From Bacteroidales bacterium (GTDB lineage: Bacteria > Bacteroidota > Bacteroidia > Bacteroidales > F082): a stretch of 64,000 nucleotides of DNA. The DNA is taken from NCBI GenBank assembly GCA_017539045.1, contig JAFYHS010000006.1, positions 124,001 to 188,000 of the forward strand. The letters run 5' to 3'. Below are positions 1,369 to 62,264 of this stretch, piece by piece (within the stretch, counting starts at the first letter, position 1; every line of letters begins with the position of its first letter). Both the position numbers and the translations under genes were made by a program. The notes below the pieces were generated by a model, which had not been told where the DNA came from, did no database searches, and saw only the letters and a list, made by a program, of their open reading frames with translations.

Positions 1369-1398
1369 TGTAGAGACGTGGCGCGCCGCGTCTCTACA
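1369..1398. repeat. 30-bp palindromic repeat, TGTAGAGACG family
   Basis: Arms TGTAGAGACG and CGTCTCTACA flank a 10-bp centre that is itself self-complementary. The same two arms with a 10-bp centre recur at 18517-18568, so this is a dispersed family. It fills the gap between the glutamine synthetase stop and the next ATG, ending 2 bases before that start codon. Confidence 0.85.
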
Positions 1399-1400
1399 GA

Positions 1401-3212
1401 ATGAACAATGCCATGACAAAGGACAAGATATTCAACTGGAGATTTTGCCTTTGTTGTGGCATTTTCATTTGGTTTGTCATCAACCTGTTGCAAGGCATCT
1501 TCACCGAGATACAGGAAGACGAGGCCTATTATGCCCTTTATGGCGAGTACCTCGCTTGGGGATATTATGACCACCCGCCCATGGTGGGGCTGATGACCTT
1601 CTTAAGCAGCCTCTTCTTCTCGGGTACCTTGGGTGTGAGGTTCTTTACGATCATTGCGTCTTGTTTGTCGCTGTGGGTGATGTGGTTGATAGCTATTGGT
1701 CGGCCCTTCGACGGGCTCAGGGACCTTAACCTTTCATCCACCGTGAAAGCAAAGTTCGTTGAGCCTGTCGAAACGCCGACTTGTATGCATGTCTTCCTGT
1801 TTTTCGTTTTGACATGCTCCATCGTGATGTTCAACATCTACGGCTTCGTCACTACGCCCGATGCGAGCCTGATCCTTTTCTCTGCCCTGTTTTTGCTTGT
1901 TTATCAGCGCTATCTGGAAAACAAATCATGGAAAAACGCGCTGCTGATGGGCCTATTCATGGCCTTGATGATTTACAGCAAGTACCATGCTTTCCTATTC
2001 TTGGGGCTGATCGTACTGTCCAACCTCAAACTGCTGAAAGACGGTAAGTTTTGGGCAGCCTGCCTCTTGGCTTTGGCCTTATTGACGCCGCATATTTTGT
2101 GGCAGGTCAACAATGATTTTCCAAGCTTCAAGTACCACCTTGTTGGGCGCAACGAAGCATTTCGCTGGAGTTATTTTTTGGAGTATCTGCCTAACCAGTT
2201 GCTCATTTTCAATCCGTTTACGTTTGGAGCAGTGGTGTATATGCTGATTAAAGATAGGATTTGTGTTCGAATCCCCCCTGCCCCCTTTAAAAGGGGGAGT
2301 GGGGTCTTCGAACGAGGATTGAAGTTTATCCTAATCGGCTTCTTTGTCTTCTTCTGGCTGATGGCCTTCCGCGGACACGTGGAGCCGCATTGGACCATCG
2401 TGTGCGTCATTCCAGTAGTGGTGTTGCTTTATCGCAAAGCATTGGTTGACGACAAGTTAAGGAAATACATTAAGTGGTTTATCCTGCCTTCCCTCCTCTT
2501 GGTCTTGGCCTTCAGGATCCTCCTGTTAACGCCTTTGGCCGACCGTTTTGGCTATCACGGCAAGGAGCCTTATTACAAGGCTATAGAGCAGGTGGCGGGC
2601 GACCGTCCCGTGGTGATACGTGGCTCGTTCCAACAGCCAGCCCTTTACCATTATTTCACGGGCAAGGAAAGCTCAACGCTTCAATGCTACTACGACCGCA
2701 TGACCCAATACGACCTCTGGCAGTTCGACAAGGACTGGATTGGCAAGTCAGTATTTGTTTGCGGTGCGTTGAATGAGCTGTCGGAAGTGTACCATATCGG
2801 CGATGTGGCTGTCGAAGGATTCCTCACCGACCATTTTCAAACGGCCAATAGGCTGATTACAACCTTTAGCATCACCAATGCCAACGACACGGAAACACCG
2901 GTCTTCCATCACGGCGACACCATCCAAGTGGACTTCGCCATCTACAACCCATGCGATGAGATCATCGATTTCCATGACAAGGACTTCGGCATGTGCATCA
3001 AAGCGCAGTATCTGCTCAGCAACGACTTCTCCTATTGTGTTTACGACGATATCGCCACCCTCATGCCACAGACTTCCTATCAAGGGCATCTTTACACCGT
3101 CGTCGGCAACGAAGTGGCAACAGGGCCTAATCGTTTTGCCTTGGGCATAGGCGACCGCATCTCTTCTTTCGTGACAGAAGAGCATCAGTTAAAGATCTTC
3201 ATCGAGAAATAA
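1401..3212 (+). CDS. GT39-family (ArnT/PMT-like) integral membrane glycosyltransferase
   Basis: Probable polyprenyl-phosphate-sugar-dependent glycosyltransferase of the PMT_2/GT39 type, acting at the periplasmic face of the inner membrane; donor and acceptor cannot be read from the sequence. The 603-residue protein starts with a membrane helix followed by EDEAYYALY and YYDHPPM, the acidic first-loop motifs of this superfamily. About ten hydrophobic helices run to residue 380, then a soluble C-terminal domain. Two palindromic repeats lie inside the gene and are translated in frame: residues about 100-127 (from 1699-1780) and 289-305 (from 2265-2313). Both fall in loops between membrane helices, so the protein may still fold. 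The ATG at 1401 is 2 bases past another palindrome; ATG 1413 is an alternative start. Confidence 0.78.
   Translation: MNNAMTKDKIFNWRFCLCCGIFIWFVINLLQGIFTEIQEDEAYYALYGEYLAWGYYDHPPMVGLMTFLSSLFFSGTLGVRFFTIIASCLSLWVMWLIAIGRPFDGLRDLNLSSTVKAKFVEPVETPTCMHVFLFFVLTCSIVMFNIYGFVTTPDASLILFSALFLLVYQRYLENKSWKNALLMGLFMALMIYSKYHAFLFLGLIVLSNLKLLKDGKFWAACLLALALLTPHILWQVNNDFPSFKYHLVGRNEAFRWSYFLEYLPNQLLIFNPFTFGAVVYMLIKDRICVRIPPAPFKRGSGVFERGLKFILIGFFVFFWLMAFRGHVEPHWTIVCVIPVVVLLYRKALVDDKLRKYIKWFILPSLLLVLAFRILLLTPLADRFGYHGKEPYYKAIEQVAGDRPVVIRGSFQQPALYHYFTGKESSTLQCYYDRMTQYDLWQFDKDWIGKSVFVCGALNELSEVYHIGDVAVEGFLTDHFQTANRLITTFSITNANDTETPVFHHGDTIQVDFAIYNPCDEIIDFHDKDFGMCIKAQYLLSNDFSYCVYDDIATLMPQTSYQGHLYTVVGNEVATGPNRFALGIGDRISSFVTEEHQLKIFIEK
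1699..1780. repeat. Inverted-repeat element translated in frame inside the GT39 gene
   Basis: Two arms of 29 bases (1699-1727 and 1752-1780) match as an inverted repeat at 23 of 29 positions. The core of the left arm is CTTCGACGGGCTCAGGG; the right arm carries its complement, GAGCCTGTCGAA. The first 28 bases of the left arm are repeated with one change at 35294-35321 in an unrelated gene. The element is read through as a hydrophilic peptide between two membrane helices. Confidence 0.8.
2265..2313. repeat. 49-bp palindrome translated in frame inside the GT39 gene
   Basis: Outer arms GTTCGAA and TTCGAAC enclose a C-run/G-run hairpin centred on CCCCCTTTAAAAGGGGG. It encodes a Pro/Arg-rich stretch (IPPAPFKRGSG) between two hydrophobic helices. 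Composition differs from the surrounding gene, which supports insertion. Confidence 0.75.
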
Positions 3213-3213
3213 A

Positions 3214-3735
3214 CTAGGATTTCGAATAAGCAGCTTTTATCAAGGCCTCTTGCTCCTGCATCCTGCGCTTGACTTCTTTTAGGTCGTTCTGCTTTTTCTT
3301 TTTGTCTATCACCTTCAGCTCGCAGTCGGCAATAGTCTCCAGCACCTGACGAAGGTTTTTGTCTTTCTCAAGCAGGAAAGCGTGACCCAGGCCATCGATT
3401 TCGCGAAGGCTGTTCATGATATGCATCTGACGCTCGGGACTCAACGTGTTCTGGATGAGAAAAAGATAGTCGAGGCGCGGGGTGAAAGGAAAGAGCACCC
3501 TATCCTTGCGCACCAGCGAGACGAGGTTATAGACGTTATAGTTCTCGCCTGCCGAGTAGTAGAAGAAGGAATAGTTGCCGCCTTCAAATTCAAGGTCGTC
3601 GTATTTGACCAGGTCGATGGAAAGCTTTTTGTTGATATTCCACGCCAGTTTATAGTCGACCAGACCCGAATTGATGCCCACGACGGTGGTGTCGTCGAAC
3701 GACGCAATCTGTATTTTCCTGTTTTTGGGATTCAT
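3214..3735 (-). CDS. IPExxxVDY-family-like protein
   Basis: Protein of 173 residues with no known function, of the small Bacteroidota family usually encoded just after rnc. The N-terminal part holds GLVDYKLAWNINK, the best-conserved stretch of the family, and an acidic/aromatic segment (YDDLEFEGGNYSFFYY). The C-terminus is a charged helix rich in Lys, Glu and Gln. The namesake motif is degenerate here (INSGLVDY). The ATG at 3735 is chosen because a -7 box lies directly upstream and family members begin here; the frame stays open further upstream only inside rnc. It converges on the GT39 gene, with one base between the stops. Confidence 0.75.
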   Translation of the reverse strand: MNPKNRKIQIASFDDTTVVGINSGLVDYKLAWNINKKLSIDLVKYDDLEFEGGNYSFFYYSAGENYNVYNLVSLVRKDRVLFPFTPRLDYLFLIQNTLSPERQMHIMNSLREIDGLGHAFLLEKDKNLRQVLETIADCELKVIDKKKKQNDLKEVKRRMQEQEALIKAAYSKS

Positions 3736-3739
3736 GCCG

Positions 3740-3747
3740 CAAAGATA
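3740..3747 (-). promoter_or_regulatory. Bacteroidota -7 box for the IPExxxVDY-like gene
   Basis: The minus strand reads TATCTTTG, matching TAnnTTTG, 4 bases from the ATG. Any transcript from here would be nearly leaderless. Confidence 0.45.
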
Positions 3748-3766
3748 AACAATTGTTCGAAGAATC

Positions 3767-4486
3767 TCAATCCTCGCTAAACAAAAGTTTCCATGTTTTT
3801 TCGGCGGCCAGCTGTTCCGCGCCACGGATGGAACGGTCGATGGCGTCGCCATAAGGCTTGCCGTCGATGAGCACTTGTATGTGGAATTCTTTCTTATGCC
3901 CCTCACCTATCTCGTCGAGCTGATGGAACACCAGGTTTTTCTTCTGCTTTTGTGACCACTCGAGCAGCTTGCTCTTGAAGTTGGCATCGGTCTGTTGCAG
4001 TTCGTCGACGTCGATATGGACCTTGACGATGCGTTCGATGATGATGCGTTTGGCGAAGTCGTAGCCGCGGTCAAGGTAGATGGCGCCCATTAGGGCTTCA
4101 AAGGCGTTGCCGCCCATCGAGCGGGCGTTGTTGCCCACGTCAGAGGAATGTCGAATATAGCTTCCGAAGCCCAGCTTCTCCGAGAGTCGGTTGAGTGAGA
4201 CACGGCTGACGATACGAGAGCGCATCTCGGTGAGGAAGCCTTCAGGCTGGGTGGGATAGGTATGGAAGAGGTAATCGGCCACGGCGAGGCTCAACACGGC
4301 ATCGCCGAGGTACTCCATACGTTCGTTGCTGACGTGGTAGTTGCCCACGCTCTCGACGGCCACCGATTTATGGGTGAAGGCCACATGATACAAAGCGATA
4401 TTCTTCGGATAGAAGCCGAAGATATTGTGGATATACTCGTAGAGTGCTTTGTCTTGGGGATCTTTTGGGCGCGAAAGGAATGCCAT
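3767..4486 (-). CDS. rnc: Ribonuclease III
   Basis: Endoribonuclease that cuts double-stranded RNA, needed for rRNA maturation. The 239-residue protein has the signature NERMEYLGDAVLSLAVADYLF-type helix (acidic metal ligands E and D) at about residues 49-68, and a second acidic site in GNAFEALMGAIYLDRG. A double-stranded-RNA-binding domain fills the last 70 residues (FKSKLLEWSQ to AAEKTWKLLF). The start is 1 base from the fabF stop, so the genes are translationally linked in the order acpP-fabF-rnc. This order is standard in the phylum. Confidence 0.95.
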   Translation of the reverse strand: MAFLSRPKDPQDKALYEYIHNIFGFYPKNIALYHVAFTHKSVAVESVGNYHVSNERMEYLGDAVLSLAVADYLFHTYPTQPEGFLTEMRSRIVSRVSLNRLSEKLGFGSYIRHSSDVGNNARSMGGNAFEALMGAIYLDRGYDFAKRIIIERIVKVHIDVDELQQTDANFKSKLLEWSQKQKKNLVFHQLDEIGEGHKKEFHIQVLIDGKPYGDAIDRSIRGAEQLAAEKTWKLLFSED

Positions 4487-4487
4487 C

Positions 4488-5744
4488 TTAGGATTCGAAC
4501 TTTTTGAAGATCAAGGTGGCATTTTGGCCGCCAAATCCGAATGAGTTGGACAAGGCGTAATGGATGTCGCGCTTGCGGGCCTTGTGGAAAGTGAAGTCGA
4601 GACGCGAGTCGATGTTCGGGTCGTCGTCGAAGTGGTTGATGGTGGGCGGGATGATGCCGTTCTTCAGTGCCAGGATGCTGGCGATGGCTTCCACCGCACC
4701 GGCACCGCCCAAAAGGTGACCCGTCATGGACTTGGTGGAGTTGATGCTGATGTTATAGGCATGTTCGCCAAACACCTCTTTGATGGCGATGGGCTCGGCC
4801 ACGTCGCCTGCCGGCGTCGAAGTGCCGTGGGTGTTGATGTGGTCGATGACCTCGGGATTGATTTCCGCATCGGCCAAGGCGCGTCGCATGCTCAAGATGC
4901 CACCTTTGCCTTCGGGATGCGGAGCCGTGATGTGATAGGCGTCGGCAGAGGCACCACCACCGACAATCTCAGCGTAGATCTTAGCGCCGCGGGCAACGGC
5001 ATGTTCATACTCTTCCAACACGATGCTACCGGCACCTTCGCCCATGACGAAACCATCGCGATTGAGGTCGAAGGGACGTGAGGCGGTCATATAGTCGTCG
5101 TTGCGCGTCGACAGGGCGTGCATCGAGTTGAAGCCGCCAATGCCGCATTCGCCGATGGCTGCACCAGCACCACCGGCCACGATGACCTTGCTCTTACCGT
5201 AACGGATGTAGTTGAACGCCTCCATAATGGCATGGGCCGAAGAGGCACAAGCCGACACCGTAGAGAAGTTGGGGCCACAGAAGCCGTATTTGATGGATAC
5301 GACACCACTCGGCATGTTGGCAATGAACTTGGTGATGAGGAAGGGGCTGAAACGCGGTGTGCCGTCACCTTCAAGGAAGAACTCCTTCATTTCGTTGAAG
5401 AAATGGTTGACGCCACCGATGCCCGAAGTCAGAAGCACACCCACATCGTCGAAGTCGGTGTTCTCTGGCGTGATGCCCGAGTCGGCGATGGCCTCGTCGG
5501 CGGCCACGATGTCGAACTGGGCGAACAAGTCGTATTTGCGCACGGTCTTCTTGTCGAAGAAGTCGTCAGGGTTGTAGCCCTTCACCTCGCACGCAAAATG
5601 CGTCTTGTATAAAGTGGAATCGAAACGGGTAATCTCACCGGCTCCGTTTTTACCATTCACTAATCCTTCCCAGAAATCCTTTACGGTGTTTCCGATGGGA
5701 GTGATGGCACCCAGGCCTGTGACAACTACGCGCTTCGATTCCAT
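4488..5744 (-). CDS. fabF: 3-oxoacyl-[acyl-carrier-protein] synthase II
   Basis: Condensing enzyme of type II fatty acid synthesis that extends acyl-ACP with malonyl-ACP. The 418-residue length is normal. The thiolase-fold catalytic triad is visible: Cys in VSACASSAHAI, His in NTHGTSTPAGD and His in TKSMTGHLLGGAG, with the Lys just before it. It lies 33 bases after acpP, its protein partner, and runs into rnc. Confidence 0.97.
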   Translation of the reverse strand: MESKRVVVTGLGAITPIGNTVKDFWEGLVNGKNGAGEITRFDSTLYKTHFACEVKGYNPDDFFDKKTVRKYDLFAQFDIVAADEAIADSGITPENTDFDDVGVLLTSGIGGVNHFFNEMKEFFLEGDGTPRFSPFLITKFIANMPSGVVSIKYGFCGPNFSTVSACASSAHAIMEAFNYIRYGKSKVIVAGGAGAAIGECGIGGFNSMHALSTRNDDYMTASRPFDLNRDGFVMGEGAGSIVLEEYEHAVARGAKIYAEIVGGGASADAYHITAPHPEGKGGILSMRRALADAEINPEVIDHINTHGTSTPAGDVAEPIAIKEVFGEHAYNISINSTKSMTGHLLGGAGAVEAIASILALKNGIIPPTINHFDDDPNIDSRLDFTFHKARKRDIHYALSNSFGFGGQNATLIFKKFES

Positions 5745-5777
5745 TATTAAGTTTATTGGTTTCTAAAAATGCTGAAA

Positions 5778-6023
5778 TCAATTGTTTTCAGCACGCATCT
5801 TTTCGATAAGTCTGACGACATCACCGACGGTGACGATGCTTTCCTGCTGGTCGTCCGGGATGGAGAGGTTGAAGCTCTTTTCAAATTCCATCATCAGTTC
5901 GACGGTGTCCAGAGAATCGGCACCCAGGTCGTTGGTGAAGCTAGCTTCCATTGTGACTTCTGAAGGATCAACGCCAAGCTTTTCGGCAATGATCGGAACG
6001 ATTTCATTCAAAATTTCTGACAT
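5778..6023 (-). CDS. acpP: Acyl carrier protein
   Basis: Small acidic carrier (81 residues) that holds growing acyl chains on a 4'-phosphopantetheine arm. The attachment Ser is S37 in GADSLDTVE. The ATG at 6023 gives the usual N-terminus MSEILNE; a TTG three codons upstream is less likely. First gene of the acpP-fabF-rnc block. Confidence 0.96.
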
Positions 6024-6067
6024 AGTTTTCAATTTTTAGTGAATAAATTATTACTCGTTTTCGGCGG

Positions 6068-6075
6068 CAAAGGTA
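6068..6075 (-). promoter_or_regulatory. Bacteroidota -7 box upstream of acpP
   Basis: The minus strand reads TACCTTTG, with an AT-rich stretch and a TTG about 16 bases further upstream as the possible -33 element. Distance to the acpP ATG is about 45 bases. Confidence 0.6.
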
Positions 6076-6141
6076 CAACTTTTTTTTATAACAAGCATTA
6101 TTTTGCATTTTTTGAGCAATAATCGTACCATACCCCTTTAA

Positions 6142-6861: not shown

Positions 6862-6873
6862 GACACTTCGATT

Positions 6874-8466: not shown

Positions 8467-8486
8467 TATGCTAACTAAATAGACTG

Positions 8487-8494: not shown

Positions 8495-8536
8495 CAAAAA
8501 GAAAGACAATAACCATCCATGAAAACAGAAAAGCAC

Positions 8537-18218: not shown

Positions 18219-18548
18219 TCATTTACGTTGGTATGTCTTGTATCGTTTCCATTCCTCTTGGAGGTCAGCCTCATGCTCACCCATGAAGAACGTTGCTTGT
18301 AGGTCCTCCTTGAAAGGCGTCCAGTTGCCGCAAATCACGCCGTCATGGGCGATGACAGGCTGGAAGATGCCGCTGTTGTTATGGGCTTTGTGGCGGTAAT
18401 CAGGCGAGAGGACGATGTCGCGGCTCTTATAGCCGATGAGGTATTCGTCGTAAGGCGGAATCAGGAGATATTTGCCTTTGCGGAAACCACGGGAGCGGCA
18501 ATCGTACGTATAATAAAATTCCCTGCATGTAGAGACGCGCCATGGCAC
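18219..18548 (-). pseudogene. C-terminal fragment of AlkZ-like winged-helix DNA glycosylase
   Basis: These 109 codons continue the upstream gene after a frameshift. The stretch CRSRGFRKGKYLLIPPYDEY and IGYKSRDIVLSPDYRHKAHNNSGIF is the conserved C-terminal part of HTH_42 (PF06224) proteins. The frame opens with an ATG inside the 18517-18568 palindrome, so separate translation of a short piece is possible but would lack the winged helices and active site. Confidence 0.75.
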
Positions 18549-19267
18549 GTCTCTACATGCAGGGAATTACCTAATATTTCAATCCCCCGCCTGCAATCGT
18601 TGACATTCAGCCCCGACCACCAAACGAAATCTTCCAAGGTGGCTGGCTGACGGCTTTGGTAATATTTCCGCGCGAGCATCGCCAAGATCTCGTCGCGGTC
18701 CATTTTGACATGGGTTTTCACCTTATCGGCAGCAAGGGCGTATGTCGCCTTCATCGGTAACAGGTCACCGCTGCAAAGCGTGCCCGACAGTTCGGCATAG
18801 CGGATGTGATACGACAGGCGATGGTCGTCCATTTGGATGTCTTTCTCCGCCAGAGCCTGAACGAAATCTTCCTTGGTGACACTACCCTTCTCTGCAGCGG
18901 TTTTGACAAGGATTTCCCTGATGCGCTTCACCTCTTCTTCGGGGATGCTGATTTTGTTGCTGCTCATCCACCCTTTGATGACTGCCAATGCCTTCGCCGA
19001 ACAAAGCTCGAGCAAGGGCCAGTAGTCCTCAGCGGAAACGAGTTGCCAAGTGCCGCGCATCAGGTGCAAACGGAGGATTTGTCCGCTGTCGAAGGCCTTC
19101 TTGAAGGCTTTGGAAGAGGGTTTCTTGGTACGCATCGCCACTGCCCAGCGCATCAGGCGGTACTCCTGTGCCTGCATCGCGCCCATATGGTTGACCACCG
19201 CTTCGGGCTTGTCGAACTGCGGGCAGATGAGCTGCTGACTGAGCAATCGGAGGGCGACGGGATTCAT
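18461..19267 (-). pseudogene. N-terminal part of AlkZ-like winged-helix DNA glycosylase, interrupted by a palindrome
   Basis: PF06224-type protein of the AlkZ/AlkX group, which unhooks DNA interstrand crosslinks. The first about 240 residues are normal and include the QxQ active-site-type motif at residues 32-34 (GAMQAQEYRLMRW). After RRGIEILG the frame enters a 52-bp palindrome and continues into unrelated residues (ending SAKANIS), while the true C-terminus lies one frame away at 18219-18548. The intact family protein would have about 350 residues. The start overlaps nothing; it sits 8 bases after the thioesterase stop in a shared transcript. The gene is probably inactive. Confidence 0.8.
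18517..18568. repeat. 52-bp palindrome of the TGTAGAGACG family inside the AlkZ-like gene
   Basis: Arms of 21 bases (AATTCCCTGCATGTAGAGAC plus G, and the complement) flank a 10-base centre containing CCATGG. The inner 30 bases match 1369-1398 in both arms and in centre length. Here it carries an extra outer arm AATTCCCTGCA. Frame analysis shows that it shifts the reading frame of the host gene. Confidence 0.88.
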
Positions 19268-26994: not shown

Positions 26995-27213
26995 ATTATA
27001 TGGATAAAGCCACCAAAGACCTTGAAATGTGTTGCTTGGAATACGGTTTAAAGCCATTTGATTCCTCTTTTTACTAATTTTCATAGGGACAAAATTTTGT
27101 CCATATCGGCTTCATGTCGTTGATTGTCAAAGATATAAATTTTTACAATCAAAAAAAGCATGGACAGAATTTTTAGGCCTCCCGAAAACCCCTTGACAAA
27201 GTTTTTTTTGCTA
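26995..27213. other. Intergenic region with two palindromes (part of the 312-base gap 26937-27248)
   Basis: No convincing gene. A perfect 16-base palindrome GGACAAAATTTTGTCC lies at 27087-27102, with a partial copy GGACAGAATTTT near 27162. Inverted arms TTGATTGT and ACAATCAA lie at 27120-27127 and 27145-27152. A TATCTTTG box on the minus strand (27128-27135) sits between those arms. These look like regulatory sites for the downstream barrel gene, or parts of an unannotated small transcript. Confidence 0.4.
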
Positions 27214-28689: not shown

Positions 28690-28722
28690 AGCCATCGGAA
28701 GCGATTTCGGTGGCTTTTTTAT
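28690..28722 (+). terminator. Intrinsic terminator after the barrel gene
   Basis: Stem AGCCATCGGAA / TTTCGGTGGCT with loop GCGA, followed by a T-run. Nearly identical to the terminator at 31321-31354. Confidence 0.75.
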
Positions 28723-31320: not shown

Positions 31321-31354
31321 AAAGCCATCGAAAGCGATTTCGGTGGCTTTTTTT
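31321..31354 (+). terminator. Intrinsic terminator after the sigma operon
   Basis: Stem AAAGCCATCGAAA / TTTCGGTGGCTTT with loop GCGA, then seven T. Nearly identical to 28690-28722. Confidence 0.8.
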
Positions 31355-39586: not shown

Positions 39587-39808
39587 ATGGAATTAACTAA
39601 CTACTTATCTAACGACGGAGCACTGCTTTTCATGGGCATATTTGTGGTGATCGCCATTGCCTATTTCCTCTTTATCCCAACCTGTGTGGCATTAGTGGCA
39701 AAAAAGAAAGGAAGACATGGATTGGTGTGGTTTTTACTTTCCATTTTCATCAATCCCATCATCGCCCTGTTGTTGCTCATCGCGTTGGGCGACAAGGAAA
39801 AAAAGTAG
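39587..39808 (+). CDS. Small two-helix membrane protein
   Basis: Protein of 73 residues with two membrane helices (about 12-36 and 47-66) joined by a basic loop AKKKGRHGLVW and ending in DKEKK. Resembles the many small uncharacterised membrane proteins of Bacteroidota with a K-G-R-H/S-x2-W-F-L-L loop. Function unknown. It precedes the GH78 gene by 22 bases. Confidence 0.68.
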   Translation: MELTNYLSNDGALLFMGIFVVIAIAYFLFIPTCVALVAKKKGRHGLVWFLLSIFINPIIALLLLIALGDKEKK

Positions 39809-39830
39809 TATTTCAACAAATAGGACTTCC

Positions 39831-42539
39831 ATGAAACACTTTCTTTACCTTTTGGCCTTACTGGGCCTCGTTTCTTGTCATGGTTCACTGGATGTCAGCA
39901 TCACCAACCCCAATGTGGAGCAACAAGTGCATCCGCAGGCCCTAGCCACGAACCAGCCGCGTTTTAGTTGGCAGTACGAATCGGCGGAAAGCAATGTCGT
40001 GCAACAAGACTACCGCATCATCGTGGCCTCCACCGCCGAGAACGCCCAAAAGGGTATCGGCGACCTTTGGGACTCCAAAACGGTGGCTTCCAACCAGATG
40101 CTTAACATCCCTATGCTGGGTCTCTCTGTCACCTACGAACCATTTCAAAGCCGCGACAAAGCTTTCTGGAAAGTCATCACGACAGTGACAGCCAACGGAG
40201 GCAGGAAAACCAAGATAGAAAGCGAAGTTCAGCCCTTTGAAATCAGCTTGCTGGAACAAAGGGATTGGCAGGCGAAATGGATTGGCCACGAGTTTGAAGA
40301 TGATGTCTTGATAGGCCACACTCGCCTTGCCGCCCGTTATCTCCGCAAAGAATTCGCCCTCAACGGCGAAGTGGCCGACGCTCGTCTTTATGTCAGCGGC
40401 ATGGGCGTGTATAGCGCCTACCTCAATGGCACCGAGATTGCTCCCGAGGAACTGCTGAAACCCACCCTCTCTTGGTATTCCAAACGTGTGTATTTCAACA
40501 CTTACGATGTCACGGAGATGCTTAACAGCGGCGACAACGCCATCGGCATCATCCTCGAAGGCGGACGCTTCACGACCATCCGCTACGATGTCAAAAACCC
40601 CAACTGGGATGGTACAGAGAATGCATTCGGCTTCGGCACACCACGACTGCTTTTGCAACTTGAAGTGACGTATAAGGATGGCCAAAAAGAGACCATCGTC
40701 AGCGACGAGACTTGGAAGATCACCAACCGAGGCCCCATCCGCACCGCCAACGAATATGACGGCGAGACCTATGACGAGAATTACGACCTCGGCGAATGGA
40801 ACCAACCCAACTACGATGACTCCGCTTGGCTTCAGGCCGAACTCGTTGAGGCCCCCGAAGGCCAACTTAGCGCCCAGCCTAACCCCAACATCACGGTGAT
40901 GGAAAAACTGAAGCCTGTCAGCCTGTTTCAAAAAGGAGACAAATGGGTTCTCGACATGGGTCAAAACATGGTGGGCTTCATTGACATGAAAATACGCGAT
41001 CAGCAATCAGGCGACATCATCACCCTGCGCTTCGCTGAACTTTTAACTCCCGATAGCCTACTTTATACCGCCAACCAACGCGGTGCTGAATGCACGGACC
41101 GATATGTCATGAAGGGCAGCGAGGCGCATTGGCACCCCATGTTTGTTTATCATGGTTTCCGCTTTGTAGAAATATCCGGTCTACGCGAAACGCCCAACGT
41201 AGACGATTTCGAAGGTTGGGTGATCTATGACGAAATGGCCGTCACAGGTTCGTTTGAGACCTCCGATGAAATCATCAACGCGGTGTATCACAACGCGTAT
41301 TGGGGTATCCGTGGCAACTACCGCTCCATGCCCACCGACTGTCCGCAACGTGACGAGCGCATGGGCTGGACCGGCGACCGAACCACGGGTAACTACGGCG
41401 AGTCGTACATCTTCGACAACCACCAACTCTACGCCAAATGGCTCACCGATGCCGAGGATAGCCAGTGGGACAACGGCTCACTGCCCAATGTCATCCCGCC
41501 CTATTGGCGTGGCTACACCGACAACATGACCTGGCCCGGTGCCGTGGTCACTGCCACCGATATGCTCTACACCCGTTTCGGCGATGAAGAACCCATCCGC
41601 CAGCATTACGATGCCTTGAAGAAATGGATGCTCCACATGAAGAACGACTACATGAGAGGCGGCCTCATGCCGCGCGACACCTACGGCGACTGGTGCATGC
41701 CTCCTGAGAGCCTCGAGCTCATCCACTCCAACGACCCCACGCGCATTACCGATGCTACGGTGCTCTCCACGCCTTTCTACTGCTACCTCTGCGGTAAGAT
41801 GGCCAAGTTTGCCGAGGTGCTAGGGGTCGACGAGGATGTGGCGTTCTTCAACCAGGAAATCACCACCAGCACTGTGGCTTTCAACGACAAATACTTCAAC
41901 CGCGTCACGGGCGTCTATGCCAACAACACGGTGACCGCCAACATTTTGCCGTTGTGGTTCGGTATGGTACCTAAAGGTTTGGAAGACAAGGTGATGCAAA
42001 GCATCGTAGACAAGACCGAAAACGAATGCGGCGGCCATGTCTCGACAGGTGTGGTCGGCATCCAACAGCTGATGCGTTGCCTGACGGAATACGGTCGCGG
42101 CGACCTCGCCCTCAAAATCGCTTCCAACGACACCTATCCGAGCTGGGGCTATATGGTCCGCAACGGTGCCACCACCATCTGGGAGCTATGGAACGGCAAC
42201 ACCGCCGACCCGTCAATGAACTCGGGCAACCATGTAATGTTGCTCGGCGACCTCATCCTTTGGGAATACGAATACCTCGGCGGCATCCGCGCCTTGGAGC
42301 CGGGCTACAGCATGATACAACTAAAGCCCTACCCCATTGAGGGATTGGGCTTTGTAAACTGTGCCTATGAATCGGTTTCGGGTCGCATCGAAAGCAACTG
42401 GAAACGCGAGGGCAACCATTTTGAATGGGACTTCGTCATCCCCGCCAACACCACGGCCGAGGTCTGTCTGCCCACCGCCAATGGTTATGAAACAAAGACT
42501 TTTGGCAGCGGACGCTACCATCTGTCTTCGGAACTCTAA
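39831..42539 (+). CDS. GH78-family alpha-L-rhamnosidase lipoprotein
   Basis: Exported enzyme of 902 residues that removes terminal alpha-L-rhamnose. The lipobox is LLGLVSC (Cys17). Domains run from N-terminal beta-sandwiches (residues 20-380) to the (alpha/alpha)6 barrel (about 440-780) and a C-terminal sandwich. The general acid lies in DCPQRDERMGWTGD and the second catalytic Glu in TTIWELWNG. The ATG at 39831 is chosen because it begins the lipoprotein signal; upstream codons overlap the small membrane gene. Together with GH106, GH28 and GH97 it forms a rhamnose-rich pectin set. Confidence 0.92.
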   Translation: MKHFLYLLALLGLVSCHGSLDVSITNPNVEQQVHPQALATNQPRFSWQYESAESNVVQQDYRIIVASTAENAQKGIGDLWDSKTVASNQMLNIPMLGLSVTYEPFQSRDKAFWKVITTVTANGGRKTKIESEVQPFEISLLEQRDWQAKWIGHEFEDDVLIGHTRLAARYLRKEFALNGEVADARLYVSGMGVYSAYLNGTEIAPEELLKPTLSWYSKRVYFNTYDVTEMLNSGDNAIGIILEGGRFTTIRYDVKNPNWDGTENAFGFGTPRLLLQLEVTYKDGQKETIVSDETWKITNRGPIRTANEYDGETYDENYDLGEWNQPNYDDSAWLQAELVEAPEGQLSAQPNPNITVMEKLKPVSLFQKGDKWVLDMGQNMVGFIDMKIRDQQSGDIITLRFAELLTPDSLLYTANQRGAECTDRYVMKGSEAHWHPMFVYHGFRFVEISGLRETPNVDDFEGWVIYDEMAVTGSFETSDEIINAVYHNAYWGIRGNYRSMPTDCPQRDERMGWTGDRTTGNYGESYIFDNHQLYAKWLTDAEDSQWDNGSLPNVIPPYWRGYTDNMTWPGAVVTATDMLYTRFGDEEPIRQHYDALKKWMLHMKNDYMRGGLMPRDTYGDWCMPPESLELIHSNDPTRITDATVLSTPFYCYLCGKMAKFAEVLGVDEDVAFFNQEITTSTVAFNDKYFNRVTGVYANNTVTANILPLWFGMVPKGLEDKVMQSIVDKTENECGGHVSTGVVGIQQLMRCLTEYGRGDLALKIASNDTYPSWGYMVRNGATTIWELWNGNTADPSMNSGNHVMLLGDLILWEYEYLGGIRALEPGYSMIQLKPYPIEGLGFVNCAYESVSGRIESNWKREGNHFEWDFVIPANTTAEVCLPTANGYETKTFGSGRYHLSSEL

Positions 42540-45243: not shown

Positions 45244-45361
45244 GTCGGATTTGCAATCCGACTGTTTTGAACCGGCGGATTTGTAATCCGCATAGTTTCA
45301 CTTCATAGTTTTCGGATTACAAATCCTAATATTCAAGTCCAGCGGATTGCAAATCCGCTGG
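45244..45361. repeat. Nested array of four short palindromes
   Basis: Four units: 45244-45262 (core GGATTTGCAATCC), 45275-45291 (GGATTTGTAATCC), 45314-45326 (GGATTACAAATCC), 45339-45361 (GGATTGCAAATCC). Unit 4 is the complement of unit 1, and unit 3 of unit 2, so the whole array is also one large inverted repeat. It fills the gap between convergent genes and may act as a terminator or a REP/BIME-like cluster. Confidence 0.8.
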
Positions 45362-46825: not shown

Positions 46826-46833
46826 CAAAAATA
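46826..46833 (-). promoter_or_regulatory. -7 box for radA
   Basis: TATTTTTG on the minus strand, 21 bases upstream of the ATG at 46805. Confidence 0.5.
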
Positions 46834-46874
46834 AGAAAAACACCCCGTAAAAGAATAGAGTCTAAGAATTTTCC

Positions 46875-46882
46875 TATTTTTG
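46875..46882 (+). promoter_or_regulatory. -7 box for the choice-of-anchor/CotH pair
   Basis: TATTTTTG on the plus strand, 21 bases before the ATG at 46903. Confidence 0.55.
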
Positions 46883-51446: not shown

Positions 51447-51671
51447 CCGCGTAGTTTTGAATCGGTAAAAATAAGAAGAAAAACGATACAAATAACCGGA
51501 TTTTGTAGTTTATAATCGTTTTTTCTCTTATGCCATTCATTTTCAGTGGATTATTTTTTCTTTTTTCATTGTAATTCTACATAACGAACGGCGCTGGAAA
51601 AAGTTGAAAATTGTTGAAATCTTTGTTCAAAAAAAATGCTTTTATGTCTTGCGCGGTTTGTAGTTTTTTGG

Positions 51672-55611: not shown

Positions 55612-55632
55612 TACCACCAACAAAAGAATACT

Positions 55633-57767: not shown

Positions 57768-57787
57768 TTAGAGCAGATTCCGTAATG

Positions 57788-57819
57788 AAAAATGGCGCGA
57801 AGTAATTCGTGCCATTTTT
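57788..57819. terminator. Bidirectional terminator between convergent genes
   Basis: Hairpin with A-run and T-run flanks (AAAAATGGC ... GCCATTTTT, stem extended by CGAA/TTCG). It can serve both the lipoprotein gene and the cysQ gene. Confidence 0.75.
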
Positions 57820-57822
57820 GTT

Positions 57823-58563
57823 TTATCGCTCAGCTGCCCAAGCCACAAACGGCGGGTTGGGATATTCTTTTTTGCTGTATTCCAAAGGCTTTCCATCGCT
57901 GATACGAAGCACCTTGCCCCCGGCGGCGCGCAGAATGGCATCGGCGGCGGCGGTGTCCCATTCCTTGGTCTTACTGTAGCAAACATAGACATCGGCACTG
58001 CCTTCGGCCAATCGAGCGAACTTAAGGCTGCTGCCTTGGGTATCAATGACAAGGTCGGGATGAACGGGACGCAATACCTTATTAATATATGCGTCCACCT
58101 CGGGCGTGCGGTGCGAACGGCTGACCAATACCGTGTAGGGACGCACTGTGTGCGTCCGCTGGATTACAGGCGGACACACGCAGTGTGTCCCTACAGCATA
58201 CCATAATTGATTGGTCACCGGCGCATAAATCACACCCAAAACGGGCTGTTTGTCGTCAATCAGGGCGATGTTGACCGTGAATTCGCCGTTGCGGTTGACA
58301 AATTCAACCGTGCCATCAAGAGGGTCGACGAGCCAATACCGCTTGAACTGTGAACGATCAGGTGGCAAATCCTCTTCACTTACAAAAGGAATACCCGATG
58401 GTTTCAAAATCTCTTTGATGATATTGCTGGCCCGGAGGTCGGCCTGCGTGACGGGTGAGTCATCGTCCTTGGTATAGACCTCGAAAGGCTGTGCATACAC
58501 TTCCATGATGGCCTTCCCTGCTTCGAGGGCTGCATGTTTGGCTAATTCCAATAGTTGTTCCAT
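57823..58563 (-). CDS. cysQ: 3'(2'),5'-bisphosphate nucleotidase CysQ with a repeat-derived insert
   Basis: Inositol-monophosphatase-fold enzyme (246 residues) that turns PAP into AMP and phosphate. Metal motifs are intact: SEED (VSEEDLPPD), DPLDGTVEF and WDTAAADAIL. Residues about 123-144 come from a 62-bp palindromic element (58134-58195) read in frame, encoding a Cys/Thr/Val-rich stretch (GTHCVCPPVIQRTHTV) in the place of the usual variable loop before the VVSRSH-like strand (VLVSRSHRTPE). The catalytic core is outside the insert, so function may be retained. Confidence 0.9.
   Translation of the reverse strand: MEQLLELAKHAALEAGKAIMEVYAQPFEVYTKDDDSPVTQADLRASNIIKEILKPSGIPFVSEEDLPPDRSQFKRYWLVDPLDGTVEFVNRNGEFTVNIALIDDKQPVLGVIYAPVTNQLWYAVGTHCVCPPVIQRTHTVRPYTVLVSRSHRTPEVDAYINKVLRPVHPDLVIDTQGSSLKFARLAEGSADVYVCYSKTKEWDTAAADAILRAAGGKVLRISDGKPLEYSKKEYPNPPFVAWAAER
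58134..58195. repeat. 62-bp double-hairpin palindrome inside cysQ
   Basis: Overall inverted repeat with ends TGTAGGGAC and GTCCCTACA. Each half is itself a hairpin: GGACGCAC-TGT-GTGCGTCC and GGACACAC-GCA-GTGTGTCC. It is translated in frame. It belongs to a family different from that at 1369 but shares the GTAG...CTAC ends. Confidence 0.85.
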
Positions 58564-58567
58564 GGTG

Positions 58568-58575
58568 CAAAAATA
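58568..58575 (-). promoter_or_regulatory. -7 box for cysQ
   Basis: TATTTTTG on the minus strand, 5 bases upstream of the ATG at 58563, suggesting a near-leaderless transcript. Confidence 0.4.
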
Positions 58576-58651
58576 AGGTTTTATCGCATTGAAAACCAGT
58601 CATATAAGAAAAAACTTTCAAAAAAGTTTCTTCCGTGCCATTTTATTCCAC

Positions 58652-58659
58652 TAATTTTG
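58652..58659 (+). promoter_or_regulatory. -7 box for topA
   Basis: TAATTTTG on the plus strand, 52 bases before the ATG at 58712. Confidence 0.55.
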
Positions 58660-58711
58660 CACGCGAAAATTTTGGGGTTGCAGGTGCAACCTTTAGCGTA
58701 AAAATGAGACT

Positions 58712-61033
58712 ATGGCAAAGAATTTAGTTATCGTGGAGTCACCGGCCAAAGCTAAGACCATCGAAGGGTTTTTAGGCAAAGAGTATACGGTGAAGTCGAG
58801 TTATGGACATGTGCGCGACTTAAATAAGAATTCATTAAGTGTTGATATTGAAAACGATTTTGAACCCGAATACGAGATTTCGGACGACAAGAAAGCCTTG
58901 GTGGCCGAGCTGAGAAAACTCTCAAAAGCCTCCGACACCGTGTGGCTGGCATCCGATGAGGACCGCGAGGGAGAATCCATCTCGTGGCATCTCTATGAGG
59001 CCCTCGACCTGAAGAAGAAAGACACCAAGCGTATCGTCTTCCACGAAATCACCAAGACTGCCATCCTCGACGCCATCGAGAACCCACGCGACATTGACAT
59101 GGGTCTAGTGGCTGCCCAACAGGCCCGCCGCGTACTCGACCGCCTCGTCGGTTACGAGCTGTCGCCCCTGCTGTGGAAAAAAGTGAAACCCTCGCTGTCA
59201 GCTGGCCGTGTGCAGTCGGTGGCCGTGCGCCTCATCGTCGAACGCGAAGAGGAGATCAAGAACTTTGTGCAGACCAGTGCCTATCGTATCATGGCGCAGT
59301 TCACCTTCATGAAAGACGGACAGGAGTACACCCTCACCGCTGAGTTGCCCCACCGTTTCGACACGGAAGAAGAGACGCGTAAGTTCTTGGAATCGTGCTT
59401 CAACGCAGGCTATAAGGTGGATTCCATCGAGAAGAAACCCGCCACACGCTATCCCGCTCCGCCGTTCACCACTTCCACTTTGCAACAGGAAGCCGCCAGA
59501 AAACTCGGCTTCTCCGTCGCCAACACCATGCGCATTGCCCAGCAGCTCTACGAATCAGGTAAGATCACCTATATGCGTACCGACTCCGTCAACCTCTCGA
59601 AGCTCGCTCTCGGCATGGCCAAGAAGGAAATCACGGAGAACTATGGCGCAGAATATGTGAAGACCCGCCAATACCAAACCAAGACCAAGGGCGCACAAGA
59701 GGCCCACGAAGCCATCCGCCCGACCTATTTGGATCAACATACCATCAAAGGCACTGCCGACGAGCGCAAGCTCTATGAGTTGATTTGGAAGCGTACTATC
59801 GCCTCGCAAATGGCCGATGCCCAGATGGAACGCACCAACGTGAACATCGGCATCTCGACCAGCGACAAGCAGTTTGTGGCCACGGGTGAGGTCATCCTCT
59901 TCGACGGTTTCCTGAAGGTCTACATGGAGAGCTACGATGACGACCGCGCCGAAGACACCGCCGCCATCCTGCCACCCATCGAGAAAGGCACAGTTCTCGA
60001 CATGGAAAAGATGGAAGCCCAGCAACGCTACACGCGTCACCCACTGCGCTACACCGAGGCCAGCCTCGTGAAGAAGATGGAGGAACTCGGCATCGGCCGT
60101 CCTTCGACCTACGCCCCCACCATCTCCACCATCCAAAAGCGCGAATATGTGACCAAGGGCGACGTGAAGGGTGAACCGCAGACCTTCAAGATCATCACGT
60201 TGAAAAACAACAAGATCACCGAGAAGACAGGCAAGGAAAACTATGGCGCCGAGAAGGGCAAGCTGTTGCCCACCGACATCGGCGTCCTGGTCAACAAGTT
60301 CTTAATCCAATACTTCGAGAGCATCGTCGACTACAACTTCACCGCCAATGTGGAGAAAGAATTCGACAAGATTGCCGAAGGCAAGCGTGAGTGGAATGCC
60401 ATGATCAAGGACTTCTACAAGAACTTCCACAAGCAGGTTGTCTCCACCACGGAGCATTCCGGTAAGTTTAGCGGCGAGAAGATGCTTGGCATCGACCCCG
60501 CCACGGGCAAGAAAGTCTATGTGAAGGTCGGTCGTTTCGGTCCGGTGGCCCAAATCGGCGACACCGAGTCGGAAGAAAAGCCTCGTTTTGCCGGTCTGAA
60601 GAAAGACATGAGCATCGAGAGCGTGACTTTGGAAGAGGTACTGAAACTCTTCGACTTCCCGCGCATCCTCGGCAAATACGAAGGCAAGGAGATCACGGTT
60701 GCGGTAGGTCGCTTCGGTCCGTATGTGAAGCATGACAACAAGTTCTACAGCCTCGCCAAGACCGACAACCCCGCCTTGGTGGACTGTGACCGCGCCATCG
60801 AGATCATCAACGAAAAACGTCAGAAAGACTTGAGCAACATCATACGCACCTTTGCCCAAGACCCCGAAATGCAGGTGCTGAACGGACGATTCGGCCCTTA
60901 CATCGCCTACAAGAAGAGCAATTACAAGATCCCGAAAGGCACCGATCCTTCCACCTTGACCTACGAACAATGCAAGGCCATTGTGGATGACCCGAAGAAC
61001 GCTCCGAAGAAAAAGGCGGTCAAAAAGAAATAA
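58712..61033 (+). CDS. topA: DNA topoisomerase I
   Basis: Type IA topoisomerase of 773 residues that relaxes negative supercoils. The Toprim domain is at the N-terminus (VIVESPAKAKTIEGFLG, then WLASDEDREGESI). The catalytic Tyr is Y287 in ITYMRTDS. C-terminal repeats (VKVGRFGPVAQIGD, VAVGRFGPYVKHD, NGRFGPYIAYKKSNYKIPKG) replace zinc fingers, as in Bacteroidota, and the tail is Lys-rich. Normal length. Confidence 0.97.
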   Translation: MAKNLVIVESPAKAKTIEGFLGKEYTVKSSYGHVRDLNKNSLSVDIENDFEPEYEISDDKKALVAELRKLSKASDTVWLASDEDREGESISWHLYEALDLKKKDTKRIVFHEITKTAILDAIENPRDIDMGLVAAQQARRVLDRLVGYELSPLLWKKVKPSLSAGRVQSVAVRLIVEREEEIKNFVQTSAYRIMAQFTFMKDGQEYTLTAELPHRFDTEEETRKFLESCFNAGYKVDSIEKKPATRYPAPPFTTSTLQQEAARKLGFSVANTMRIAQQLYESGKITYMRTDSVNLSKLALGMAKKEITENYGAEYVKTRQYQTKTKGAQEAHEAIRPTYLDQHTIKGTADERKLYELIWKRTIASQMADAQMERTNVNIGISTSDKQFVATGEVILFDGFLKVYMESYDDDRAEDTAAILPPIEKGTVLDMEKMEAQQRYTRHPLRYTEASLVKKMEELGIGRPSTYAPTISTIQKREYVTKGDVKGEPQTFKIITLKNNKITEKTGKENYGAEKGKLLPTDIGVLVNKFLIQYFESIVDYNFTANVEKEFDKIAEGKREWNAMIKDFYKNFHKQVVSTTEHSGKFSGEKMLGIDPATGKKVYVKVGRFGPVAQIGDTESEEKPRFAGLKKDMSIESVTLEEVLKLFDFPRILGKYEGKEITVAVGRFGPYVKHDNKFYSLAKTDNPALVDCDRAIEIINEKRQKDLSNIIRTFAQDPEMQVLNGRFGPYIAYKKSNYKIPKGTDPSTLTYEQCKAIVDDPKNAPKKKAVKKK

Positions 61034-61041
61034 ACAATTGA

Positions 61042-61071
61042 AAGCGGCGGAAGCAATTCTGCCGCTTTTTC
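61042..61071 (+). terminator. Intrinsic terminator after topA
   Basis: Stem AAAGCGGC / GCCGCTTT extended by GAA/TTC, then a T-rich tail. Confidence 0.8.
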
Positions 61072-61103
61072 TTTGTTTTTTTGACGTAATGCAAATAAAT
61101 TCC

Positions 61104-61111
61104 TATTTTTG
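61104..61111 (+). promoter_or_regulatory. Promoter of the deoxyhypusine-synthase-like gene
   Basis: TATTTTTG with TTG at 61081-61083, 20 bases upstream. Confidence 0.6.
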
Positions 61112-61153
61112 CATTCTTCAAATCTGATAATTAATCTTAAATCAAATAGAACA

Positions 61154-62188
61154 ATGGAGAAAAAAGACTTACTGAAAGATGTTGTCGAACATATCGACAT
61201 TAAGAAGTACGACTCGACCGAACTCATCAACGCCATGCGTAAGATGTCGTTCACCTCGCGCGACACCGCTCGCGCCGCCGACATCCTCTGCCAGATGATC
61301 GCGGAGAAGGACTGCACCAACATCCTCACCATCGCCGGTTCCACCTCGGCCGCCGGCTGCATGCAGGTGTATGTGGAGATGGTCAAGAACAAGATGGTTG
61401 ACGCCGTCGTCAGCACGGGTGCCTCCATTATCGACATGGACCTCTTCGAAGCCCTCGGCTACAAGCACTACATCGGCACGAAGGAGAACGTCATCCCCGA
61501 CACCAAGCTGCGTGAGCTCTACATCGACCGTATCTACGATACCTTCATCGACGAAGAAGAACTGCAGGCCTGCGACCAAGCCACCTGCGACGTGGCCGAC
61601 ACCCTGGAGTGCCGTCCCTACAGCAGCCGCGAGTTCCTCTATGAGGTCGGCAAATGGCTGGCCAACGGTCACGGCGTGAAGAAAGAGAGCCTCATCCAGA
61701 CCTGCTACGAGTGCGGCGTGCCGATCTTCTGCCCCGCCTTCAGCGACAGCTCCGCTGGCTTCGGCATCGGTAAACACCAGTGGCTCCGCAAGAAAGCCGG
61801 CAAGCCCTACGTCAGCATCGACTCAGTGGCCGACTTCCTCGAACTCACCGAAATCAAGATGAACAGCCCTCAATCGGGCCTCTTCATGGTCGGTGGCGGC
61901 ACACCCAAGAACTTCGCTCAGGACACCGTCGTCTGCGCCGAGATCCTTGGCGTCGAAGTGCCTATGCACAAATATGCCATCCAGATTACCGTGGCCGACG
62001 TGCGCGACGGCGCCTGCTCATCGTCGACGTTGCTCGAGGCTGGCTCATGGGGCAAGGTAAGCGAAGAGCTCCAACAGATGGTCTATGCCGAAGGCACCAC
62101 TGTCATCCCCGCCATCGTCAGCTACGCCTACCACAACGCACCGTGGCGTGAGCGTGAGTATAAGAACTGGCAGAAGTTATATCATTAA
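61154..62188 (+). CDS. Deoxyhypusine-synthase-like protein
   Basis: Protein of 344 residues of the deoxyhypusine synthase family, NAD-dependent enzymes that move an aminobutyl group between amines. The catalytic Lys is K301 in EAGSWGKVSEE, matching the SWGK motif of true synthases; the NAD-site stretches STGASIIDMD (87-96) and VGGGTPKN (246-253) are present. Bacteria lack eIF5A, so the product is more likely a polyamine such as homospermidine or another aminobutyl/aminopropyl compound. The next two genes are amine-related, supporting a polyamine role; the exact reaction is inference. Confidence 0.88.
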   Translation: MEKKDLLKDVVEHIDIKKYDSTELINAMRKMSFTSRDTARAADILCQMIAEKDCTNILTIAGSTSAAGCMQVYVEMVKNKMVDAVVSTGASIIDMDLFEALGYKHYIGTKENVIPDTKLRELYIDRIYDTFIDEEELQACDQATCDVADTLECRPYSSREFLYEVGKWLANGHGVKKESLIQTCYECGVPIFCPAFSDSSAGFGIGKHQWLRKKAGKPYVSIDSVADFLELTEIKMNSPQSGLFMVGGGTPKNFAQDTVVCAEILGVEVPMHKYAIQITVADVRDGACSSSTLLEAGSWGKVSEELQQMVYAEGTTVIPAIVSYAYHNAPWREREYKNWQKLYH

Positions 62189-62195
62189 TTAACTA

Positions 62196-62264
62196 TGGCT
62201 TATGGCTCATGGCCTATGGCAGTGCTGCCGCAGGCCATGGGCCATAGTCATAGGCCATAAGCCA
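62196..62264. repeat. 69-bp inverted repeat abutting a start codon
   Basis: Ends TGGCTTATGG and CCATAAGCCA, with inner repeats of ATGGC/GCCAT around a short centre (AGTGCTGCCGCAGG). The right end lies 5 bases before the ATG at 62270, so it replaces the normal leader and any ribosome-binding site. Confidence 0.78.

Follow-up and report, generated by a model that had tools for sequence, protein, structure and literature searches.

Different families of dispersed short repeats occupy the same coding loops in related Bacteroidales genomes

Can short palindromic repeats inside protein-coding genes be exchanged for one another while the surrounding gene stays intact? The question is raised by a 64-kb stretch of an uncultured rumen Bacteroidales draft genome of 43 contigs and 2.36 Mb (C5:124001-188000; hereafter the window, meaning the whole stretch analysed), in which palindromes sit in protein loops and gene leaders. 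In a genus set of 99 genomes, mostly assembled from uncultured organisms, we found five codon-level sites in four genes at which related species carry different repeats: one each in an AlkZ-like, a CysQ/IMPase and an alpha-L-rhamnosidase gene, and two in a gene for a 424-aa protein. The occupants either belong to unrelated families, namely a 28-bp palindrome (the 28-mer), a REPIN, CGTCATTGCGAG palindromes, heptamer arrays or none at all, or they differ solely in a 10-nt palindromic centre. Such centre swapping was observed at three genic sites, in AlkZ and at both sites of the 424-aa gene, with largely conserved arms. A sequence-only reading of the window had proposed that different families share the habit of sitting in loops and that the palindromes create new protein segments. 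Both proposals are borne out, the first more strongly than the window alone could show: the same loop is used in related species by unrelated families, and the elements add and change segments in frame.

The AlkZ-like gene was followed in 50 of 58 loci, from 49 genomes. Seventeen loci have a short, empty site, 29 (window included) carry the 28-mer or a degenerate form of it, three carry the unrelated CGTCATTGCGAG palindrome, and in one (L236) the site was not found. The 10-nt centres are TGCCATGGCG, CAAAATTTTG, CACGGCCGTG (or near variants), TGGCGCGCCG, GTGTGCACAC and TTTCATGAAA, set in a conserved flanking gene, and sister species at 2-5% divergence per branch differ at the site (L154/L156, L162/L163 and L164/L176). 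On the gene tree, with states set by eye in 49 rows (L236 excluded; 10 rows lack the downstream part), the six centre classes of the 29 occupied rows require 17 changes. As many as 88 of 300 label shuffles gave this number or fewer (range 14-21), and thus there is almost no phylogenetic signal in the centre. The state of the site (empty, 28-mer or CGTCATTG) shows a clear signal, with 6 changes versus 13-20 in the shuffles. In the frame used, empty alleles measure 75 nt and occupied alleles 87-117 nt, so that host bases must have been replaced; a clean 28-nt insertion with target duplication was not seen at this site. A foot-like GTAGAG, GTGGAG, GTTGAG or ATAGAG is already present in 5 of the 17 empty alleles.

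In the window copy, the palindrome continues into the host flanks as a longer, near-perfect inverted repeat, as would be consistent with correction on a hairpin template (compare the template switching of PMC8604942). The reading frame breaks after this element, as the sequence-only reading had indicated in calling one element disruptive, and this is the only such case among 49 readable orthologues. The orthologous open reading frames (ORFs) are mostly 345-358 aa long, versus 268 aa in the window, and the ORF that overlaps the element in another frame (Table 1) is likely to be the detached C-terminal part of the gene. The break may be an assembly error. In four other loci (L167, L168, L171 and L178) both arms have changed to GTTGAGA...TCTCAAC; three of the loci match the heptamer unit exactly, and L171 has an additional change. 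These arm variants hint at a possible link between the palindrome foot and the heptamer arrays.

The 424-aa gene was chosen because two 28-mers lie inside it in the source genome, and its best-scoring 30 loci of 74 genomes were examined. Site 1 carries a 28-mer in 29 of the 30 loci (none in L377), with eight centre classes and 15 changes on the tree (300 shuffles: 15-22; 2 at or below), and site 2 in all 30, with seven classes and 14 changes (300 shuffles: 12-15; 134 at or below). The two sites are located approximately 270 bp apart, and the centre class is the same at both in 9 of 29 loci. The TGCATGCA centre at site 1 has exact copies elsewhere in five of its six holder genomes, as compared to 30 of 93 other genomes with any copy.

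At the CysQ/IMPase loop, the repeats of different species belong to different families. The set contained 49 of 79 loci, the 30 more distant ones being excluded, plus the window. Among the 49 relatives, 12 carry the window-type REPIN, nine CATTCNG heptamers (mostly in inverted arrangement), nine CTCAACT heptamers and three CTCACCT. The rarer occupants are GTCCTCA, GTCCCGC, CGTCATTGCGAG and GGGCTGYCAC (two loci each) and AGTGGAA and GACAGGA (one each), while six are unclassed. Named families fill 44 of the 50 rows, with 10 classes and 22 changes on the tree (200 shuffles: 21-31; 2 at or below). The loop stem exceeds any stem of the same length elsewhere in the gene in 30 of 50 cases. In the syntenic relative G126, heptamers are located in the loop where the window has the REPIN, and six neighbouring proteins are 93-99% identical. 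As for a tie between the loop occupant and the family abundant in a genome, CATTCNG heptamers occur in 17 of 26 genomes, which span several loop classes, and are absent from the two CGTCATTG and three CTCACCT genomes searched. The best named matches to the window protein are from uncultured Bacteroidales or Bacteroidia metagenome-assembled genomes, many labelled as ruminant-derived; RUG in the genome names presumably stands for rumen genomes.

The alpha-L-rhamnosidase loop, empty in the window, was analysed in 50 loci, out of 69 genomes with a match. CTCAACT arrays were found in 19 (three of them mixed or nested) and the 28-mer type in 11 (eight with a degenerate left arm), followed by CAACAAT and CGTCATTGCGAG in five each and AGTGGAA and CTCACCT in two each; six loops are short. 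The seven classes require 23 changes (300 shuffles: 22-31; 2 at or below), so some phylogenetic signal is left in the loop classes of both this gene and IMPase. The occupants of both loops are often heptamer-periodic, with a best lag of 7 or 14 in 24 of the 39 rhamnosidase loops of at least 35 nt and in 30 of 49 IMPase loops, versus 39 of 500 fixed-length segments of the window. The (CTCAACT)n array has a single arm, and no stem formed by it exceeds the gene background. In four nested cases (L317, L337, L346 and L348), the 28-mer or other palindromes occur with or inside heptamer arrays, arrangements that point to repeats landing in repeats.

The reading frame continues across the site in 48 of 49 readable AlkZ loci, in 50 of 50 loci for both IMPase and rhamnosidase, and in 30 of 30 at each site of the 424-aa gene, counts that show frame continuation and not free length variation (the anchors came from a one-frame search or from alignment, and some loci are empty). 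Among the AlkZ rows, the window copy (L149) has no in-frame anchor, and L233 and L235 have a variant anchor, in frame. This near-total frame retention is what purifying selection would leave. We further compared the flanks of alleles with the same centre, in 29 of 30 loci for each 424-aa site and in 26 of the 29 AlkZ 28-mer loci (L169 and L176 were unanchored, and the singleton L229 was excluded). At 15-60 nt from the element, species pairs with the same centre were not more alike at any of the three sites (582, 601 and 994 of 1000 permutations at or above the observed value). Within 15 nt, such likeness was observed at site 1 of the 424-aa gene (0 of 1000; 9 of 1000 for the 45-nt flank), and not at site 2 or in AlkZ (103 and 442 of 1000). 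Thus, the exchanged tract looks element-sized, unlike that of ordinary gene recombination, and the absent linkage at 15-60 nt is the strongest argument for element-sized exchange.

We favour, with some reserve, the explanation that REP-like (repetitive extragenic palindromic) elements and heptamer repeats turn over by short-tract, repeat-for-repeat copying in permissive loops, with selection filtering for frame. It builds on what was observed, that is, the families themselves, the common codon-level sites, their differing occupants, the retention of frame and the lack of linkage beyond the element at three sites. Several dispersed families would take part, namely the REP-like "double-foot" palindrome, a REPIN relative, the CGTCATTGCGAG palindromes, CGGATT hairpins and heptamer arrays, and in coding genes they would survive in frame at permissive protein turns. 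An incoming repeat would replace the resident over a tract of approximately its own size, leaving sisters with a different centre or class in an otherwise unaltered gene. Replacement is likely to be direct, with another genomic copy as the donor, and copying may be primed by short homology such as the 9-nt arms, the GTAG/GTNGAG foot or the heptamer unit. Copying could proceed, on single-stranded DNA where hairpins form, by template switching that a hairpin provokes or by ectopic conversion of a short tract, possibly aided by a Y1 (HUH) single-strand transposase cutting at GTAG feet. Purifying selection for an open frame would leave the in-frame outcomes in tolerant turns. A bolder version seems unlikely to us: a palindrome-head exchange system with fixed docking sites, each a 9-nt foot pair in loops and leaders, where the 10-nt head or the whole cassette would be replaced frame-neutrally by genomic copies. 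Undescribed machinery, possibly a HUH nuclease acting on GTAG feet, would thereby give many enzymes rapidly changing loop peptides (VET-xxxx-SL).

Several observations weigh against repeat-for-repeat copying. The shortest AlkZ and rhamnosidase alleles are empty states, so that a repeat may have been lost and another inserted later. One of the TGCATGCA holders, G121, lacks any further copy in its genome, and the foot-like hexamer is absent from 12 of 17 empty AlkZ alleles. The AlkZ 28-mer rows include degenerate arms, and in places the spacer adjoining the element differs by centre type, a hint of local linkage. For IMPase, the loop fails to hold the strongest stem of the gene in 20 of 50 cases. 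We sorted loops and centres into classes by eye or with regular expressions, the gene trees are only partly resolved, and any exchange is read indirectly, from differences between assembled genomes. Finally, when 48 window gene sets were set against six relatives, 1 of 26 in-frame indels had a stem of at least 10, versus 2 of 214 controls. Palindromes are therefore not the usual source of indels, and we reject them as a general one.

Repeated hits on the same loops might also arise without any exchange, if each family inserted independently by its own transposase or by slippage, insertions elsewhere were purged and tolerant turns were hit again and again. The gap at the AlkZ insertion point in the alignment to structure 5uuj, the break at the IMPase loop in the alignment to the CysQ structure 3b8b, the minority of genic copies genus-wide (8 of 32 in a long ORF) and the empty or short alleles at AlkZ (17 of 49) and rhamnosidase (6 of 50) are all consistent with this. 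Independent insertion is nevertheless doubtful, as it leaves unexplained, unless re-insertion is base-exact, why the 28-mer arms and insertion point are constant while the centre changes at three independent sites. To account for the 23 or more changes that one loop has undergone in 50 species, insertion there would also have to be very frequent. Homologous recombination between species, shuffling old loop alleles with inactive repeats, would explain why sisters differ while distant species have the same centre, and why, at one site, alleles with a common centre resemble each other more closely in the adjoining 15 nt. We judge it quite improbable, given that no linkage extends beyond 15 nt at three sites, that the two sites of the 424-aa gene vary separately at so short a distance, and that the allele variety per site would still call for many exact insertions.

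A single enzyme, or a few, for all families had been suggested by the sequence-only reading, which placed no mobiliser in the window and supposed that transposases elsewhere, of the RAYT (REP-associated tyrosine transposase) or Y1 type, may read hairpin shape. No Y1 gene was found in the window, either as a Pfam match or in a motif search for HUH...Y-like ORFs, and all four PF01797 (Y1) matches of the source genome lie outside it, representing three distinct genes because L004 is 99.9% identical to L001. Y1 genes were detected in 70 of 99 genomes, and across the 99 the number of Y1 genes correlates with that of 28-mers (Spearman 0.50; 0.37 with genome size taken into account). TnpA-REP acts on single-stranded GTAG hairpins, with the GTAG, loop and mismatch features deciding recognition, according to the available text of PMC8266576. 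A mobiliser of all families that recognizes shape is nonetheless very unlikely. The 28-mer was found in 1 of 53 Y1 loci (175 kb, a subset of the Y1 genes of the genus), where 1.2 are expected from its density, so that a REPtron, a Y1 gene flanked by the same hairpins, was not recovered. Its arm occurs in two of these loci, one being L001, and the 28-mer is absent from the fetched flanks of the three distinct source-genome genes. The hairpins beside Y1 genes differ from gene to gene (L003, L179, L185/L192/L195, L203); in a 397-kb sample of the source genome, those of L003 occur solely beside L003 and the L002-type repeat is absent. Moreover, 28-mers are present in 23 of the 29 genomes without detected Y1, nine of these 23 having at least 10 copies, although 12 of the 29 are listed as less than 90% complete. 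One common occupant, the CTCAACT array, is not a hairpin. Recognition by shape alone was therefore rejected as the main model, on account of the one-armed heptamers and the distinct Y1 flanks.

A role of a Y1 enzyme is conceivable, given the correlation of counts and a coincidence of phyla. The motif Y---Q--HH is present in 52 of the 53 Y1 loci, all except L003 (YIDNNP), and reads YIFGQAEHH in L001 and YIRNQAEHH in L002, as in IS200/IS605-like TnpA of subclass 1.2. This subclass occurs mostly in Cyanobacteria and Bacteroidetes and is without insertion sequence (IS) properties, as stated in the accessible part of PMC6006769. The 28-mer was found in the same two phyla, which, apart from one Sinorhizobium match, were the phyla covered by the search.

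The 28-mer has the form GTAGAGACG-N10-CGTCTCTAC, and 19 of 24 distinct elements with these arms (at most two arm mismatches; source-genome sample) are exactly 28 bp long. The exact form occurs at 21 places in the source genome, where counts are slightly inflated by redundancy between contigs C5 and C19, on which the same sites recur, and between C10 and C13 (L001 on C10 and L004 at the end of C13 share 99.9% identity over 1,662 nt). With exact arms, it has 1,852 copies in 88 of the 99 genomes, the reversed control giving none in any genome. Thus, it resembles REPs of the GTAG type in being a 20-40 bp palindrome with GTAG at its 5' foot and in having many dispersed copies and inverted pairs, of which two are REPIN-like in the source genome (58134-58195 in the window and L062:14416-14476). 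Among 40 genomes from other families of the order, TGTAGRGACGC is missing in 21 and occurs at least eight times in six, 54 times in one of these, so the arm extends beyond the genus. Close matches to the element came from cyanobacterial plasmids in 14 of 15 records (86-100% identity; Nostoc, Trichormus, Calothrix, Kovacikia and Halotia), with one weak match to a Sinorhizobium plasmid, and from 109 stretches of viral contigs. In five IMG/VR stretches (L382, L383, L384, L397 and L403), exact 28-mers are paired at a spacing of 1,857 bp and may delimit a mobile unit.

Two reading phases of the 28-mer are open, giving VETxxxxSL or CRDxxxxVST, while the third contains a stop. Phase 0 is the commoner one in long ORFs (7:2, 6:2, 5:2 and 11:2 in four sets with overlapping loci). 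A genus-wide pattern search yielded 32 distinct copies, of which 24 lie outside long ORFs, as do 7 of 16 copies in a source-genome sample that was partly chosen around matches. Of 36 distinct 28-mers, 29-34 show Watson-Crick pairing at each of the five centre pairs (shuffle means 11.4-16.8), with at least three pair types per pair. Across 45 distinct contexts there are 16 centres, six of them in at least three contexts. This recurrence of few centres across loci disfavours their de novo, random origin by hairpin-tip repair. In L062:8951-16044 (C19), four adjacent genes with NPTNGVLF...YRITNLMGQ-like C-termini, which we take to be sorting domains of the type IX secretion system (T9SS), each carry one 28-mer in an equivalent position, and among them there are three centres (VETRHGTSLP twice, VETRLIASLP and VETQNFASLQ). 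At L066:14283-14310 (C16), a 28-mer directly follows an apparent lipoprotein signal, read by eye as MKRWFYIVFLVGMVAFSACNRL before VETRRATSLP.

In-frame REP-like palindromes are already known, while the exchange of heads or entire families in orthologous loops is new as far as the literature search shows: among the open-access PMC papers listed, judged by titles and abstract openings, none reported that families or centres swap at orthologous coding sites. Small dispersed repeats (SDR) of cyanobacteria were reportedly described by Elhai in 2008. We know of no family swapping at orthologous sites among Rickettsia palindromic elements (RPE). Like the elements studied here, RPE are palindromes inserted in ORFs and translated in frame, a likeness by description (as cited in PMC3733652) and not by RPE sequence. 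The accessible text of PMC6006769 and PMC3116915 assigns "double foot" REPs to TnpA-REP subclass 2.4 and describes in-frame REP insertions inside transposase genes. The 28-mer resembles these REPs of the REP/REPIN-RAYT systems in its GTAG foot and CTAC end, short palindrome, tens of dispersed copies and REPIN-like pairs. It differs in that no cognate RAYT with the 28-mer at its flanks was found (1 of 53 Y1 loci), and in a centre that varies between species at fixed orthologous sites, for which we found no description. GTAG- and CGTC-tagged repeats inside ORFs, the latter reported in Bacteroidetes, are described in the part of PMC3733652 that was available, and as here, palindromes of two tag classes are read in frame in genes that include DNA-repair genes. 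The same source mentions a single instance, in two Xanthomonas species, of differing REPs at roughly one position of recB, whereas here unrelated families share one codon-level site in dozens of species.

Mitochondrial coding genes of Nematomorpha likewise contain inverted repeats, some at positions common to several species (PMC6649704), but their arms encode conserved mitochondrial protein regions, in contrast to the bacterial loops, which contain members of dispersed families. PMC4692102 describes heptameric repeats, sometimes in inverted form, in a cyanobacterial and Xanthomonas context. Any likeness to cyanobacterial SDR would lie in the plasmid matches of the element; the difference is that both classes here occupy coding loops of Bacteroidales. 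Template switching at quasipalindromes (PMC8604942, PMC7202029 and PMC8794818, in their available portions) could account for arms having been perfected, both in the AlkZ copy of the window and in the variants with GTTGAG...CTCAAC arms. It homogenises arms within one locus, and alone it would import neither a centre nor a family.

In the window itself, palindromes clearly exceed chance: a hairpin scan gave 10 stems scoring at least 11 and four scoring at least 15, compared to means of 1.4 and 0.0 in five first-order simulated sequences. Five elements are strong (Table 1) and form three families, with TGTAGRGACG arms (1369-1398, 18528-18557 and 58134-58195), CGGATTNNNAATCCG and the heptamer hairpin GGCCATA; the last, at 62196-62268, also occurs in the close relative G126. 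Further matches of the scan are weaker, with scores of 11-12 (51471-51531, 57788-57819, 46826-46882, 27091-27173 and 1407-1463). The nine elements in at least six families of the sequence-only reading were thus not reproduced. Its two elements at start codons were confirmed; of four said to be translated in frame, two are genic, the frame breaking after one of them, and of two intergenic ones a single strong element was recovered. The source genome contains 38 single TGTAGRGACGC arms, 10 sites of CGGATTNNNAATCCG and five of GGCCATAAGCC, versus none for each reversed control pattern. The ORF with AAA_25, Zn_ribbon_LapB and ChlI domains beside the intergenic hairpins is presumably RadA-like. Two near-identical, terminator-like hairpins (GCCATCG.AAGCGATTTCGGTGGCTTTTTT; 28690-28720 and 31323-31353) are located 2.6 kb apart and are 97% alike.

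Table 1. Palindromic elements and genes with repeat-bearing loops in the window
Feature	Position	Strand	Remarks
TGTAGAGACG...CGTCTCTACA palindrome (28-mer, GGCGCGCC centre)	1369..1398		Directly upstream of ATG 1401 of an ORF with a PMT_2 domain
ORF in other frame, overlapping element	18219..18548	-	
AlkZ-like ORF	18461..19267	-	268 aa; site of 28-mer centre swapping in the genus
28-mer (18529-18556, CCATGG centre) within larger near-perfect inverted repeat	18517..18568		In AlkZ-like gene; frame breaks just after
Alpha-L-rhamnosidase ORF	39717..42539	+	Loop at ~41100-41132 empty (short) in window; six repeat classes in relatives
Four CGGATTNNNAATCCG hairpins, one with mismatch	45246..45361		Intergenic, between TonB_C ORF and ORF with AAA_25, Zn_ribbon_LapB and ChlI domains
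CysQ/IMPase ORF (Inositol_P)	57823..58563	-	Loop before [FY]TVLVSRSHR; unrelated repeat families in relatives
REPIN-like pair of GTAGGGAC hairpins	58134..58195		20 residues, in frame, in Inositol_P-domain gene
Heptamer hairpin (TGGCTTA TGGCTCA TGGCCTA ... inverted)	62196..62268		Directly upstream of ATG 62270 of an Arginase-family ORF

The changes of occupant between sister species would constitute a natural, sequence-resolved record of exchange events. For the organisms, such exchange would be a route by which enzyme loops gain new peptides without loss of frame. The results also urge caution in reading variable loops of these genomes as adaptive domains, since such loops may consist of repeat DNA.

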